A stretch of DNA of 64,000 nt from Sporobolomyces roseus. Taxonomy: Eukaryota > Basidiomycota > Microbotryomycetes > Sporidiobolales > Sporidiobolaceae. The notes below the pieces were generated by a model. That model did not search any database, had not been told where the DNA came from, and saw nothing but the letters and a program-made list of their open reading frames with translations. Every line of letters begins with the position of its first letter. Position 1 is the stretch's first letter. The translations under genes were made by a program, and so were the position numbers. The stretch lies in assembly GCA_016617785.1 (NCBI GenBank), contig JADILM010000004.1:806001-870000 (forward strand). Direction: 5' to 3'. Of this stretch, positions 46,903 through 54,964 are shown in pieces.

Positions 46903-49347
46903 TTAGGACGATTCTTCGGAAGCGGCGCGCTTGACAGCCCAGTTTCTAGCAAAGATTGACGCCTTGAGGAACTCTGTGAGAAGACGATAGAGTCCATGAG
47001 TACTCGGGCTCAGTGAAGGGATATTGCAGAGAGATCGACTCACTCTTGTTCGAGTACTTCTTGAATACGAATTTCTCGTCGAATCCGGGAGCAGCGATCG
47101 ATTCGAGGAGGAACCCAGCAGGAACGAGGAGTTGAGCCTCGGTGTAGTCAGAGTAGAAGATGAAAGCCTCATTCTGTTCCAGATCGCTGAGCATTAGTCT
47201 CGGAGAACGCGAATGAGGTTGAGCTGAGAACTTACCCAGTCTCCTCCAAGCATTCTCCTCGCAAGATACATTCCGATAGCAGCAACCATACTAGGCTTTG
47301 CTCGCAAGAATCGATGATCGAGGAGAGTGACTTCCATGAGGAATTTCGAGAGGGTGCGAGTTTGGATGTCGTAATCGTCGGCTTTCGAGATTCGTCGAAC
47401 CCAAGAGTAAGGAGAGCAGTAGGAAGATATGTTGAACTCGAGAGACTACATGTCATGAAGGTTAGCTCATGAGCGTTGAAGAATCGAGATCGAAAGGATG
47501 CGTACAGATAGCATAATTCGTTCACCCTTGAGAATCTCTTCTCGACTGTAACCACCTTCCGTCATGTAAACGAACTCTTCAACTCTGCCATTGACGAAGT
47601 GCGAGCGATGTCAGTCGCGATGCATCCATGAGAACGAAGCGAATCGGAACTTACGAAGGAGCCATGATTTCCTCGTATTTCGCAGCGATGAACATAGCGG
47701 TGACTCCGACGAGTTGGAATTTGACGAGCGAGACGACACGGTTCGAAAGGAATCGATCGATAACGTTGACGGCGATCCAAAGTGTTTCGGGAAGCATGTG
47801 ATACCTCATGTGAACTTGCAAGAGCCAGTCGATGAGAGTCGTACGCATAGGCCTGTGGGACAAGACAGAGGTCAGGCTCATGTCGAAAAAGTCGGGAAGC
47901 GAAGAAGAACGCACCATTCGATTTCGCTTTGGTGATCCATGTATCGAGGGTTTGGCATCGAAGCCTCCTTTGTACGTTGGAACAGCTGAGGTCAGCGAAT
48001 GTTTCTGACACTAGGGAAACGTTGAGAGTTACCTCGAGTTTGCTCATGTATGAGAAGATCTCGTCGCTGTACTCTGCCACCATGCTAATGTCCCAGAAAT
48101 CTTGTTCCTCCTTAAAGTCTCGCTTGATTTGCTGAAGAAGTAACTCGCTGTGGATGGCATCCTCATCGTCGACAAGATCGGCGACCCAGTTCTCAGGGTC
48201 GACTTCGATAGCTTCTTCCGTCGTGAGGATTCGAACCTTGTCGTCATGATGCGAAGTGAAAGCACCGGTTTCCTCCTCCTCATCGGCGAACTCGACATCG
48301 TGAGTGCGTTTGTGACTCTTGGCTTGAGCGTGAGTCGAAGGAGAAGACGGAGCGGTAGGCCCTTCAGTCTTCATTTGTTGATCTTGAACCCATTCGCTCG
48401 TTCCGTCAATTCCTAATCCGACCGCCGCTTCATCGTCCCTCAGCACTTCGATATCTCCCTGTCCAGACCAAGCTCCTTCCCATTCACCTTGTTGCAACCG
48501 TGGTGCACCAGGAGCGACAGAGGGAGCAGCTTGAGCTTTCGAACCGAGTGGTGCTCGAGCAGGACGGGTCGACTTTGACGGGAGACCTCCTGCGGCAGAC
48601 GACGAGTTGATCTTGAGACGACCGAGTCCGACACCGGTTGAGGAAGGAGGTTGAGGGACAGTAGAAGCGACATTGGAAACGGTGGAATTCGAAGAAGCGG
48701 TTCTTGACCGAGTGTGAGGTTTGACGAGACCTCCGTTGATCGAATCTTTCGATGTTCGATCGACTTGAACCTGTAGAGCGATATTCGTGTCAGTAAGGTC
48801 GAGAAGTTTGAAGTGGGTAATGAAGTCACTACATGCGAACAACAATCTTTTTCGGCGAAGATGAGCGAAACTTACACGGGTTGCTGCTCCAGCGTTTGAT
48901 ACATCCCCCAAAGCTCTCCTTGGTCCTGGTAATGCTGTCGCTTTCCCTACTGCAACTCCAGTCGTTGTTGTTGAAACTGTTTTCCCAGCTAATCTTCCAG
49001 CAGTTGACAGAGAAGTGGTTGAAGTCTTGCCAATCAACCTCGGTTGTGCTTGAGCTGCCCCTACGTTCGCTGCAGAAAAGTTCTCATCCTGACTGAGTCG
49101 CATAGGTGCTCGAGAAGCGCGGCGTGGGCGAGGAACCTAAATTTGAAAGAGAAAGGGTAACAAAATGTTGAACGAGATCGTCAGCGACTGTAACACTGGT
49201 TTAGATCTATTTGCACCCTTCAGTATCTCTTCATCCTGTCCACGTTCCCTTCTAGCTAACCGATCCTACGATCTGAGGTGTTGTGAGAGTGAGGGAGAGA
49301 TCTGTAGAACATCGACTGACCTTGGCTTGATTCGCTGCTGTAGACAT
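46903..49347 (-). CDS. B-type mitotic cyclin
   Basis: Regulatory subunit of Cdk1 at G2/M. Exons: 49347-49321, 49136-48876, 48770-48033, 47985-47915, 47852-47655, 47584-47506, 47445-47236, 47173-47044 and 46973-46903, giving 594 residues. A perfect destruction box R82-x-x-L85-x-x-x-x-N90 (RRALGDVSN) marks it for APC/C. A long Ser/Pro/acidic region leads to the cyclin box: NPRYMDHQSEIEW, MRTTLIDWLLQVHMRYHMLP, ETLWIAVNVIDRFLSNRVVS, TAMFIAAKYEEIMAPSVEEF. The second cyclin fold has LEFNISSYCSPYSWVRRISK and ends in a short basic tail. The order matches Clb/Cdc13/NimE-type cyclins. The 27-nt first exon is followed by a 184-nt intron. Confidence 0.93.
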
Positions 49348-50481: not shown

Positions 50482-51306
50482 TCAAGCGGAAGGCACGACG
50501 GCTGCGCCAATGTTGGGAGTCGCAGGCTTGAAACGAGTTTCAGCACCTTGATCGAGAAAGCTCAACGAGAAATCAGTTTCGGTTCGAACTTTCTTTGAGG
50601 AAGGTAGTTCTGGCTCACCGGTACGAACAACGGCATCTTGCGAATTTTCAGCGTCCTTCAATTTGATCGTTTGGGATGGTTTTTGATCGGGAAGGAACCG
50701 AAGAGTGCCTCCAACGGACTGCAAGGAGAACCCACGGGGAGGGAGAGCTGAGAGAGCGAGACGACTGAGCACGTCAATCTATGCTCAAGGGAACAGCGAT
50801 TAAAAGAAGTCGGGTTCGAACTCACGAGTGTCTCCCCTCTTGATTCTGCGAGCATTCGTCTCGTCCTCCTCGACTTGCGCTCTCCACGACCTCCTCTCCC
50901 TCGAGAGCGCATACATGGTATCCCAGTCTGACTGTTCGTCGGGACTGCGTTTGCGAGCAGAAGGGAGAGGGGAAGACATCGCTTGACGACGATTGAGCAT
51001 TCCCGAAGGAAGAGGAGAAGGAGCTTGACGTTTCGCGAGGAGGTTCTCGTATTCGTATCGACGTTGGAGGGAAGCTCTGAGAGCGGAGAGAGTGGGAGTT
51101 GCAGATCGTTTGGCCAAAACAGGTGTTGCGGATCGACGAGCGAGAGTTGGAGTTGCTGAACGACGAGAGGGAGGAGGGAAGACAGGAGATCCAACTTGTT
51201 GTCGAGCGTAGTGTTGGTGAGCTTGCTGATTTGCGGGATAGTGGGCGAGGGAAGAGGTGAAGAAGAGCGACCCAATGACGGCGAAGAGGAGGAAACGAGT
51301 CGACAT
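50482..51306 (-). CDS. Secreted precursor with many Kex2 sites and short peptide repeats
   Basis: Exons 51306-50826, 50747-50619 and 50546-50482 give 224 residues. A signal peptide ends near Ala21 (LFAVIGSLFFTSSLA). After it, dibasic Kex2-type sites occur at RR48-49, RR57-58, KR66-67, RR82-83, KR92-93, RR106-107, KR119-120, RR138-139, RR153-154 and KR156-157. They release related peptides: SATPTLARR, SATPVLAKR, SATPTLSAL..., then QAPSPLPSG... and QAMSSPLPSA.... The QA starts resemble Ste13 dipeptidyl-aminopeptidase trimming sites. This is the layout of Kex2-processed repeat proteins (pheromone-like, repellent-like or RiPP precursors). Function is unknown. The two introns are canonical, the second (72 nt) keeping frame if retained; reading past the first donor instead gives a short tail REFEPDFF. 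Confidence 0.75.
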
Positions 51307-52265
51307 TGTTTTCTTGAGGTGGATCTTTCGAGGTTCGAGGATGGGAGTAGAAGATAGATACACACGAAAGAGAAGTCATTCGAGCCCGAGAAACTATCAG
51401 CTTGAACAGAAAGTTGAACGAGCAGACTTCTTCAGACGAATTTCGAAAACGACCGTTCGACTCGCAGGATAGAGCTTATTCTTCATGGCTCAGAGTAGTG
51501 CCAACGCTTTCACGAGGTAGGCAAAAAGCGCTCAGTAGTTCAAGGATGTGCGAAGACGTTAATCGGGCAGATTCTGTCAAGAAGGTCAAAGAGTTGCGAA
51601 AAGAATTCGAATGTCGACGAGTTTCCGTGAACCCGAGTCTCTTTGGTGCAATGCTCTTCTGATGAGACTCGACAGTAGGCTATGGCTAGGAGACTTGAGG
51701 TCCTCGACAAGCTCGATCTGTCTTCACGAGAGTACATTCTGCATTTCAAGTTTCAAGCGATACGATCAACGCCAATATGCTAGTCAAGTGAAACTGGTTC
51801 GTCTGCTCGACGTTGACGACGAAGATAGCTTGTCGACGAAAACGACGACGACTTCACGCCTCAAGTCAAGAGGGAAGCCGCGGTTTCGGGTCAAAAAGGG
51901 AAGGTTTTGACTGGAAAAAGTGGACAATTACCCTTACTTTTGAGATTCGGCCAATCAAATCTCATCAATTTTTGAACCCGGTCGGCGAGCCACGGAAGTG
52001 ATTCGTTTCCTGCTATTCCCGAGAGAGCGAGAGTTGCACTTCGTTTCGCAAAGCTTCCCTCTCTTTCTCTCTCCCTTGAACCCCTTCTTTCCTCCATCTT
52101 CTCCTCTTCTGCTTTGCTTTGCTAGCACCTACCCTCTCTCATACAGTGAGCTCTGCCTCCTCTTCTCTCTCCCTCTCTCCCCTCATCCCCCTCATTCGGA
52201 ATCCTTGAAACTGACGCTTTCCCTTGCAGCTCTCCCTCCCTTTCACACTTCAACACATTCTCAAT
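51307..52265. promoter_or_regulatory. Divergent region upstream of PEPCK
   Basis: Head-to-head gap between the Kex2-type precursor and PEPCK. The last 200 bases before the PEPCK start are strongly C/T-rich (52060-52260), typical of a highly expressed fungal leader. I found no clear tandem CreA-type sites by eye. No gene is supported. Confidence 0.45.
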
Positions 52266-54964
52266 ATGTCTCCCCGCTCAATGACTCCCATCCGTCACGG
52301 AGAAGAACCTACCAATGATCCGTGAGTCTTGCCTTTCCCATTCAAGGTTGATTGAGATGGGTCACGAGGGAAGCAACGAAAATACTCGAGGACGGCTTGC
52401 GTGGATCCGGTAGATGCTAGAGTAGCTCATAGGTTCCAGTCTGGGTGCTTTCGAGGTTGGGAAGTCGTTGGAAAGGGAGGAAAAGGACGGAGCGAAGGTT
52501 GCCGGAGAATGCTCGTCTTCCCTCGCTCAGAACGACATAGGCTTGCATCCGAGCCACTCTATACCATCCTCGCTGTCCTCTCCGACTGTCCTGCTTGCTT
52601 TCTGCTGACGAGGGAAGACGGGAAACGACTCTTCTTCAATTCTTTTCCCCCACTTCTGAAAATGGCGGCAAAGCTGACCCTCTCTTTCTCTTTGATGACA
52701 GCGCGAATGAGCCTACCTACGGTCTCCTCGGAAAGGAGCTCTCCATGTTCTCGGAAGCCGGTTTCGACATGCAAAAGATTCACCTCAAGGTTCGCTTTTC
52801 TCTCTTCTTTCGTCGTTTACAACCTCCGAGACTGACGGTTTCGTCCTTTCATACTTTTAGCGTAACGCTCCCGTCGCTCAACTCTATGAAGACGCTATCA
52901 AGTACGAAGGAGCCGTCATTGCCGACTCTGGAGCCTTGATCAACTTCTCCGGAAAGAAGACTGGTCGTTCGCCCAAGGACAAGCGTATCGTTTTCGAAGA
53001 GACGTCGAAAGACGATGTCTGGTGGGGTGCTGTCAACATTCAAATGGATGAGCACACTTTCGAAATCAACCGTGAACGTGCTATCGATTATCTCAACACC
53101 CGCGACAACGTCTAGTAAGTCTATCATTGATCTAATACTTCCGTCTCGCAACGTCCTGACACATCAGCTCTCTACGTGTAGCGTCTTCGACGGTTTCGCC
53201 GGATGGGATCCCAAATACCGAATCAAGGTTCGAGTCGTTACTTCCCGAGCCTACCACGCCCTCTTCATGCACAACAGTGAGTCTCATGCTCTACTCTCTC
53301 AGATCATCTAGTCTCCCTACTGACGAAACCCTTCGTCGACAGTGCTCATCCGACCTACGAAGAAGGAACTCGCCGAGTTCGGAACTCCTGATTTCACCAT
53401 TTACAACGCTGGACAATTCCCTGCGAATCGATTCACTGCCGGTATGACCTCGCAAACTTCCGTCGAAGTCAACTTCAAGCGTCACGAGATGGTTATCCTC
53501 GGTACTGAATACGCCGGAGAGATGAAGAAGGGTATCTTCTCAGTTATGGTTAGTCAAAAACCTTCATATTACCTTGTTTCCTGCCTACAGCTACTGATAA
53601 GATACGACATGTGACGACAGCACTACCTCCAACCCGTCAAATTCGGCAACCTTTCCCTTCACTCTTCCGCCAACCAAGGTCCCGATGGCGATGTCTCCCT
53701 CTTCTTCGGTCTCTCCGGAACTGGAAAGACCACTCTCTCTGCCGACCCTCGTCGTGCTCTCATCGGTGACGACGAACACGTCTGGTCCGACACTGGTGTC
53801 TTCAACATCGAAGGTGGATGGTGAGCCAAACCCCTACAAGTGTCTTTCTCGTTTCTCTTGCTCACTCTCAAATTCTCCTCTTTAGCTACGCCAAGTGTGT
53901 TGGTCTCGACGCTGAGAAGGAACCCGATATCTACAACGCTATCCGATTCGGTTCAATTCTCGAGAACGTTACTTACGACCCTGACACACGGGAACCCAAC
54001 TACGAGGACACTGGTATCACTGAGAACACTCGATGCGCTTACCCTATCGAATACATCAACAACGCCATGATCCCTTGCATGTCACCAAATCAACCCAAGA
54101 ACGTCATCTACCTCACTTGCGACGCTTTCGGTGTTCTTCCTCCTGTCTCCCTTCTCGACTCTAACCAAGCTCAATACTGGTTCCTTTCTGGTTACACTTC
54201 GAAGACTCCTGGAACTGAGGATGGTATTGCTGAGCCCACTCCTACTTTCTCGTGAGTTTCTCTTTCTCTTGCGCTCTTACACCATTCCCCTTTCATCGTC
54301 CCTTCCCTTCCCTCCCTCCTTCTGCCCCTGAATTCGTAACTCCCGCTGCCCCTTTCCCCCCCTGCACTCCGTTCCGAAACTTCAAGCTAACTCTTCGTCA
54401 AATCGTCATAGAACTTGTTTCGGAGCCCCCTTCATCATCCTCCACCCTTCCCGATACGCCTCTATGCTCGCCGAACGTATGAGCAAATCCGGGACGCGTT
54501 GTTGGTTGGTCAACACCGGGTTCGTTCTTTTCTTCAAACTGCATCGAAACTTGGGCGTAAACGAAAACTCATACTTTCCTCGTTGATCACAGATGGACTG
54601 GAGGAGCCTTCGGAACTGGGAAGCGATGCCCTCTTAAGGTCACCCGAAAGATCGTCGACTCAATTCACGATGGTTCCCTCGCCAAGTGCGAATTCAAGAA
54701 GTCACCCGTCTTCAACCTCTCTATCCCTACCGCTCTCGAAGGTGTTCCCTCAGAACTTCTCGAGCCCAGTCAAGCGTGGGCCGACAAGGCTGCTTACCAG
54801 AAGACCAACGAGAAGTTGGCTGGTATGTTCTCGGCCGCTTTCGAACGTTATTCGAAAGAGTGCGCTCCTGAAGGTAAGCTTCTCACTCCTCCTCTCCTCG
54901 CTTGCTCCTTCTCATACTGATTGGTTCTCCGTCTACAGTCGTCGCTGCTGGACCTAAAATCTAA
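52266..54964 (+). CDS. PCK1: Phosphoenolpyruvate carboxykinase (ATP)
   Basis: Gluconeogenic enzyme that turns oxaloacetate and ATP into phosphoenolpyruvate, CO2 and ADP in the cytosol. Exons: 52266-52321, 52702-52789, 52861-53114, 53182-53276, 53343-53548, 53621-53820, 53886-54251, 54412-54519, 54593-54873 and 54939-54964, giving 559 residues, the usual length for the fungal ATP-type enzyme. Signatures: [20 protein letters not shown] near the N-terminus, kinase P-loop [13 protein letters not shown] (from residue 263), [30 protein letters not shown], and GARYAFGERM-type region represented here by [20 protein letters not shown]. The first intron is unusually long (380 nt, 52322-52701). Carbon-source control is expected from the family; the window also encodes a CreA-type repressor. 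Confidence 0.96.

Follow-up and report, generated by a model that had tools for sequence, protein, structure and literature searches.

Several peptides are released from one Kex2 substrate in the case of Rep1 of Ustilago maydis and Ece1 of Candida albicans. Fungal precursors with similar units between Kex2 sites have also been surveyed as a class, the KEPs. According to the main text of Le Marquer et al. 2019 (PMC6339444), their pipeline asks for a secretion signal without a membrane segment, judged by SignalP and TMHMM, and for at least four KR/RR fragments, of which at least three are similar, with repeats making up at least 15% of the protein. Umemura 2020, according to the main text (PMC7329392), requires a tandem array of three or more repeats, each 8 aa or longer and lying between Kex2 sites, with 40-aa seed scoring. 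The KEP peptides of Coprinopsis cinerea are described in PMC9769878 as linear, often pyroglutamated and in some cases trimmed in the Ste13 manner, partly on the basis of expression in P. pastoris; some come from non-repeat stretches, namely the piece from the signal peptide to a single Arg and the C-terminal end. In red yeasts, pheromone precursors with CAAX-like motifs have been described at the MAT loci (PMC3236058). Sporobolomyces is not named in the main text of either KEP survey (PMC6339444, PMC7329392), whose supplements may list relatives, and four repeat strings of the protein described below were not found in the literature searched.

The window, by which we mean the whole stretch of 64,000 nucleotides from Sporobolomyces roseus that was analysed, sits on contig C4 of a 22.4-Mb genome in 15 contigs. 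An earlier note, made from the letters of this DNA, had placed a Kex2-processed repeat precursor at 50482..51306. The coordinates are right: the gene lies on the minus strand, with the ATG at 51306 and the stop codon ending at 50482. The note had the location and missed both a 78-nt intron and a conserved C-terminal module in exon 2. The spliced product has 248 aa and is encoded by two exons, with the following features, all on the minus strand:

50826..51306, minus: exon 1, with the signal-like start, His-rich segment, SATP and QA units, acidic linker and ETNARRIKRG, as supported by aligned orthologues
51244..51306, minus: residues 1-21, signal-peptide-like start MSTRFLLFAVIGSLFFTSSLA, from hydropathy and a helix at 3-20 in the orthologue model
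51202..51243, minus: residues 22-35, His-rich segment HYPANQQAHQHYAR, whose last residue is a single Arg, followed by Gln
51058..51159, minus: residues 50-83, three SATP units, SATPTLARR (from 51159), SATPVLAKR (from 51132) and SATPTLSALRASLQRR (from 51105)
51028..51057, minus: residues 84-93, fragment YEYENLLAKR, which separates the two repeat blocks
50947..51027, minus: two QA units, QAPSPLPSGMLNRR (from 51027) and QAMSSPLPSARKR (from 50985)
50833..50862, minus: residues 149-158, ETNARRIKRG, which holds two KR/RR sites and is conserved more strongly than any other stretch
50748..50825, minus: intron of 78 nt, GTGAGT...TCTCAG, two residues past the conserved IKRG
50482..50747, minus: exon 2, encoding the conserved C-terminal module PLPPRGFSLQSVGGTLRFLPDQKPSQTIK and a variable tail, up to and including the stop codon

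The exon junction RIKRG-xx-PLPPRGF is common to the public models P0002, P0003, P0004, P0006, P0007 and P0008. An unspliced reading of 168 aa, running to 50800, was discarded because exon 2 is conserved in the orthologues while the sequence after the donor differs between the models. P0001, P0005 and P0010 probably read into the intron, and P0009 probably does so in part. Alternative splices (e.g. of 57, 61 and 117 nt) were also tried, and none yields the conserved junction. Searches of the genome with exon 1 and with exon 2 showed that the gene is single; no second copy was found with either exon, one extra exon 2 match (E 0.49) being taken as chance. A Pfam scan of the 248-aa protein gave no family, and nothing was found in the window by tRNA scans or by Rfam at the gathering threshold.

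The highest mean Kyte-Doolittle hydropathy over 19 residues within residues 1-21 is 1.62, at residue 5, and beyond residue 25 the highest mean is 0.35; together with the model helix, this agrees with the signal peptide proposed in the earlier note. The protein contains neither Cys nor an N-glycosylation sequon, and it ends in ...AVVPSA, so that the absence of a CaaX end was also read correctly. Cutting at KR/RR in silico gives 11 fragments. Neither Tyr nor Cys occurs in the five repeat units, whose GRAVY values range from -0.21 to 1.21. The third SATP unit of the window protein lacks the terminal basic pair (SRR) found there in all five orthologues compared. As a separate observation, the predicted mature N-terminus is a His, in the His-rich HYPANQQAHQHYAR, and where orthologues extend over this segment they have a counterpart; it is a speculation that such an N-terminal His could bind copper.

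To judge the basic pairs and repeats against chance, the residues were shuffled. Ten KR/RR pairs lie in the 137 residues from 22 to 158, the same number that had been noted before, compared with a shuffle mean of 3.67 (P 0.00045); across the whole mature part the count is 10 against a mean of 4.02 (P 0.0023), and all dibasic pair types together give 12 (P 0.0028). The near-identical spacers reported earlier correspond to the three SATP and two QA units, and repeated 4-mers number 10, compared with a shuffle mean of 0.66 and a shuffle maximum of 9 (P 5e-5). Alike residues in the SATP units often use different codons (units 1 and 2, 7/9 residues alike, 5 of those 7 by different codons; units 1 and 3, 6/7 alike, 2 by different codons; units 2 and 3, 5/7 alike, 4 by different codons), thus the repeats are not a fresh duplication of DNA. 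In all three comparisons synonymous differences per site (0.43-0.62) exceed non-synonymous ones (0.07-0.30). The frame therefore looks as if it had been selected as a protein, the small number of codons making this indicative only.

A protein search and a profile search, in which scoring covered the 7993 candidates with the most shared words, together gave 11 relatives (P0001-P0011). Seven of them carry a species name (S. carnicolor, S. salmoneus, S. ruberrimus, S. pararoseus with two, S. koalae and S. phaffii, i.e. six species). Searching with the C-terminal region of P0002 gave 6 matches among 9 candidates, all within the same 11 proteins. No named relative outside Sporobolomyces appeared in the protein, profile and C-terminal-region searches, which need shared words of 5 residues and could miss diverged relatives. 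P0001 differs from the window protein at 1 of 168 residues in the unspliced reading, and its repeats are identical. Sites and conservation were counted in five orthologues, P0002, P0003, P0004, P0006 and P0007, out of the ten proteins that the protein search had given. P0001 was left out of the counts as being near-identical, P0005 and P0010 because their models read into the intron, P0008 and P0009 because their models start internally, and P0011 because it covers exon 2 only. Among those counted, P0006 has no start and P0003 has a piece of PEPCK at its end; one gapped cell (P0006, site 138) was scored as not kept.

The mean pairwise identity was calculated for the window protein and the five orthologues over 15 pairs, or 10 pairs for the signal and His-rich segments. 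In the front part it was 58% for the signal, 69% for the His-rich segment, 67% for the QQVGSP segment, 75% for the SATP block and 61% for YEYENLLAKR, whose counterparts read YDFESYLKRR and similar. It reached 85% in QAPSPLPSGMLNRR and fell to 58% in the second QA unit, 53% in the SPDEQS fragment and 36% in SWRAQVEED. In the rear part ETNARRIKRG stood at 93% and PLPPRGF...TIK at 85%, followed by the acidic tail with 42% and the last 19 residues with 50%. A stretch of exon 2 at 50542-50619 on the minus strand (approximately residues 204-229), which contains a KK pair, is absent from the named orthologues in the alignment and present in P0011.

The earlier note had named the loss of repeats and dibasic sites from orthologues as what would count against its reading; this was looked for and not seen. 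KR/RR sites are kept in 42/50 cells (10 sites in 5 orthologues), six sites in all five orthologues, two in four, one in three, and site 57, at the end of the first SATP unit, in one. This conservation is only modestly above background because isolated K/R residues are also kept, in 44/58 cells; mature residues are identical in 623/983. Both repeat types are kept by the five orthologues, some in altered form. Counted by eye, each orthologue has three SATP-type units (with SSTP, SALP, SASP and TATP variants), as does the window protein; QA-type units, among which GV and SL variants were counted, number three in each orthologue and two in the window protein. An automated pattern count gave 3 or 4 SATP-type units, a number that includes similar stretches elsewhere in the protein. 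The earlier proposal of peptides beginning with SATP holds in that the units are there, but their clean framing fails in most orthologues. In four of five, no KR/RR parts the first two units, the first being without its basic pair, and the length of the SATP peptide thus varies by species. A free SATPxLA would not be a constant product, since unit 3 of the window protein lacks the basic end and site 57 is kept in only one orthologue.

The most conserved part outside the repeats and the IKRG stretch is the C-terminal module, PLPPRGFSLQ-VGGTLR-LPDQKPSQTIK, which is on a par with the best repeat unit. The tails of P0002, P0004, P0006, P0007 and P0008 contain no further KR/RR, and that of P0003 contains one, at the point where the model runs into PEPCK. 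An AlphaFold model of the orthologue P0002, made from 9 sequences, is of low confidence for the greater part of the chain (mean pLDDT 56.8, pTM 0.18). Its better parts are short, namely the helix 3-20, two charged helices (75-93 and 134-156) and a beta-hairpin with strands 182-187 and 190-195. The C-terminal module had a mean pLDDT of 79-80 at residues 171-190 and 69 at 191-200, and no secondary structure was seen in the repeats. A model of such low confidence fits a precursor, as weak evidence.

When set against the KEP surveys, as their main texts describe the class (PMC6339444, PMC7329392), the window protein resembles fungal KEPs in its signal-like start, the similar units between KR/RR and the lack of a CaaX end, and differs in its few repeats, which fall into two families, in a low repeat share and in a C-terminal module that is long, conserved and free of repeats. 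The hydropathy and model helix are compatible with a signal peptide, and the 11 KR/RR fragments exceed the four of the Le Marquer pipeline (PMC6339444). By eye, three similar SATP fragments of 9, 9 and 16 aa can be counted, the third being longer and divergent. The repeats make up 8.5-11.9% of the spliced window protein, depending on how units and length are counted, and would reach 16.1% only in the unspliced 168-aa reading. We did not file the protein as a formal KEP in the sense of PMC6339444 because the spliced form is below the 15% rule. The earlier note had seen the architecture of KEP proteins here; the orthologues and the presence of the enzyme families speak for this, and the repeat filter does not. 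The best reading of the sequence is that the protein would work like a KEP, the known kind being the broader one of Kex2-cut precursors of several secreted peptides.

The likeness to the KEPs of Coprinopsis cinerea and Pleurotus, as described in PMC9769878, lies in the short linear peptides, predicted in our case, some with N-terminal Gln, and in products from non-repeat ends; the matching features in the window are the QA units, the SA-TP starts, HY...HYAR|Q and the C-terminal module after IKR. In a comparison by eye, the cores reported there (QYKAPSW, SGVAADW; PMC9769878) end in W, unlike SATPxLA and QAPSPxPSGMLN of the window. Ste13-type dipeptides, SA-TP and QA, follow Kex2 sites in the window protein; their use by such an enzyme is doubtful because S. 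koalae (P0007) has GV in place of QA. Compared with the products of Rep1 and Ece1, the repeat peptides of the window are short, contain proline and are only mildly hydrophobic.

The enzymes that such a precursor would need were searched for in the genome. A kexin P-domain match was found at one locus, beside which lie exons that look subtilase-like by their motifs. A DPPIV_N match was also found at one locus, at the level of the DPPIV family and without implying Ste13, and S10 carboxypeptidases, likewise at the family level and without implying Kex1, gave 13 matches at four places. For the neighbourhood, 20 frames at 36-63 kb were scanned with Pfam, out of the 79 stop-to-stop frames of at least 150 aa in the window:

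39.6-40.4 kb: kinesin
44.6-45.9 kb: COG6, in three frames
53.8-54.3 kb: PEPCK
55.3-56.4 kb: thymidylate synthase, in two frames
58.1-58.7 kb: Ras-family GTPase
one frame of the window: a match to Baculo_11_kDa, below the cut-off

Eleven of the 20 scanned frames had no Pfam match, and neither UstYa nor another peptide-modifying enzyme was found among them. The long minus-strand frame 47565-49136 gave no Pfam match at E 0.01; by its motif EYSDEIFSYM it presumably resembles the front of a B-type cyclin. The peptide gene and the PEPCK gene, whose start was placed by eye at 52266 on the plus strand, are divergently transcribed from an interval of just under 1 kb (51307-52265). If they share a promoter there, the peptide gene could be linked to gluconeogenic or starvation conditions. 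The S. salmoneus model P0003 carries, at residues 219-290, a C-terminal portion of PEPCK encoded in the orientation of the peptide gene, while in the window the corresponding PEPCK stretch (54597-54812) is on the opposite strand; a difference in local gene order or an error in the model would account for this.

Given the observed gene structure, repeats, dibasic sites, conservation and presence of the enzyme families, the gene probably encodes a secreted precursor that is cut by Kex2 into several small linear peptides, where cleavage, secretion and function are predicted from the sequence. The signal peptide would direct the precursor into the ER, a Golgi kexin (Kex2) would cleave after KR/RR, and a Kex1-type carboxypeptidase would remove the basic residues. 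The predicted products in the window species are SATPTLA, SATPVLA, the proline-rich QAPSPLPSGMLN, QAMSSPLPSA and some non-repeat fragments, together with a C-terminal peptide that would start with GDTPLPPRGFSLQSVGGTLRFLPDQKPSQTIK. An N-terminal Gln may cyclise to pyroglutamate, and SA, TP or QA would be possible trimming targets for a dipeptidyl aminopeptidase, although not all species keep this signature. The likely place of use is extracellular, where the peptides would signal from cell to cell or to other organisms. The small number of repeats (3 + 2) and the second QA unit, 58% identical, count against this explanation.

It is rather unlikely, though the strongest of the alternatives, that the C-terminal module freed at IKR|G is the main product and the upstream repeats serve as a pro-segment or as spacers of little activity. 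The identity of the module equals that of the best repeat, the ETNARRIKRG that precedes it is conserved even more strongly, the module forms the beta-hairpin in the P0002 model, and five of the orthologous tails have no further KR/RR; however, QAPSPxPSGMLNRR is as conserved as the module and is itself repeated, and mere spacers would need neither. We give a lower chance to a secreted, proline-rich and largely unstructured protein of the wall or surface that stays uncut at most basic pairs. This improbable reading would agree with the few repeats and with how well isolated K/R are kept, but the dibasic pairs are in excess over shuffles, and the protein lacks Cys, a sequon and the hydrophobic tail that goes with a GPI anchor.

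Pheromone and cyclic-toxin roles, which the earlier note had listed as known for KEP proteins, are unlikely, and for each we see hardly any chance. A sexual pheromone precursor would share its overall plan with the ascomycete alpha-factor precursors, with Kex2 sites and with SA-TP and QA readable as Ste13 dipeptides; unlike those, the window protein comes from a basidiomycete and has other peptide sequences, and no STE2 match was found in the genome, a weak result as the control genomes were also silent. The ending AVVPSA is not the CaaX end of a lipopeptide pheromone, and the red-yeast precursors with CAAX-like motifs sit at MAT loci as described in PMC3236058, whereas STE3 lies on contig C11 and the window on C4. 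Precursors of cyclic dikaritin-type RiPPs likewise have a signal peptide and Kex2-flanked repeats (as described in PMC9769878), but no match to UstYa (DUF3328) was found in the genome, where the controls were silent too, or in the 20 of 79 window frames scanned, and the five repeat units offer neither Tyr nor Cys.

For the secreted precursor of several peptides, which we prefer, a further and tentative step would be a peptide system of Sporobolomyces and its close kin, in which SATP-type peptides, QAPSPxPSGMLN and a hairpin-forming C-terminal peptide, made at a fixed ratio, act jointly at the cell surface or in communication; the C-terminal peptide would then be a conserved secreted factor that is new and has no known relatives. 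We regard this as doubtful. A single gene, found conserved in six named Sporobolomyces species, that would yield a few defined peptides makes a tractable case. The point most worth following is the non-repeat C-terminal module, a conserved and concrete candidate product that surveys based on repeats could overlook.
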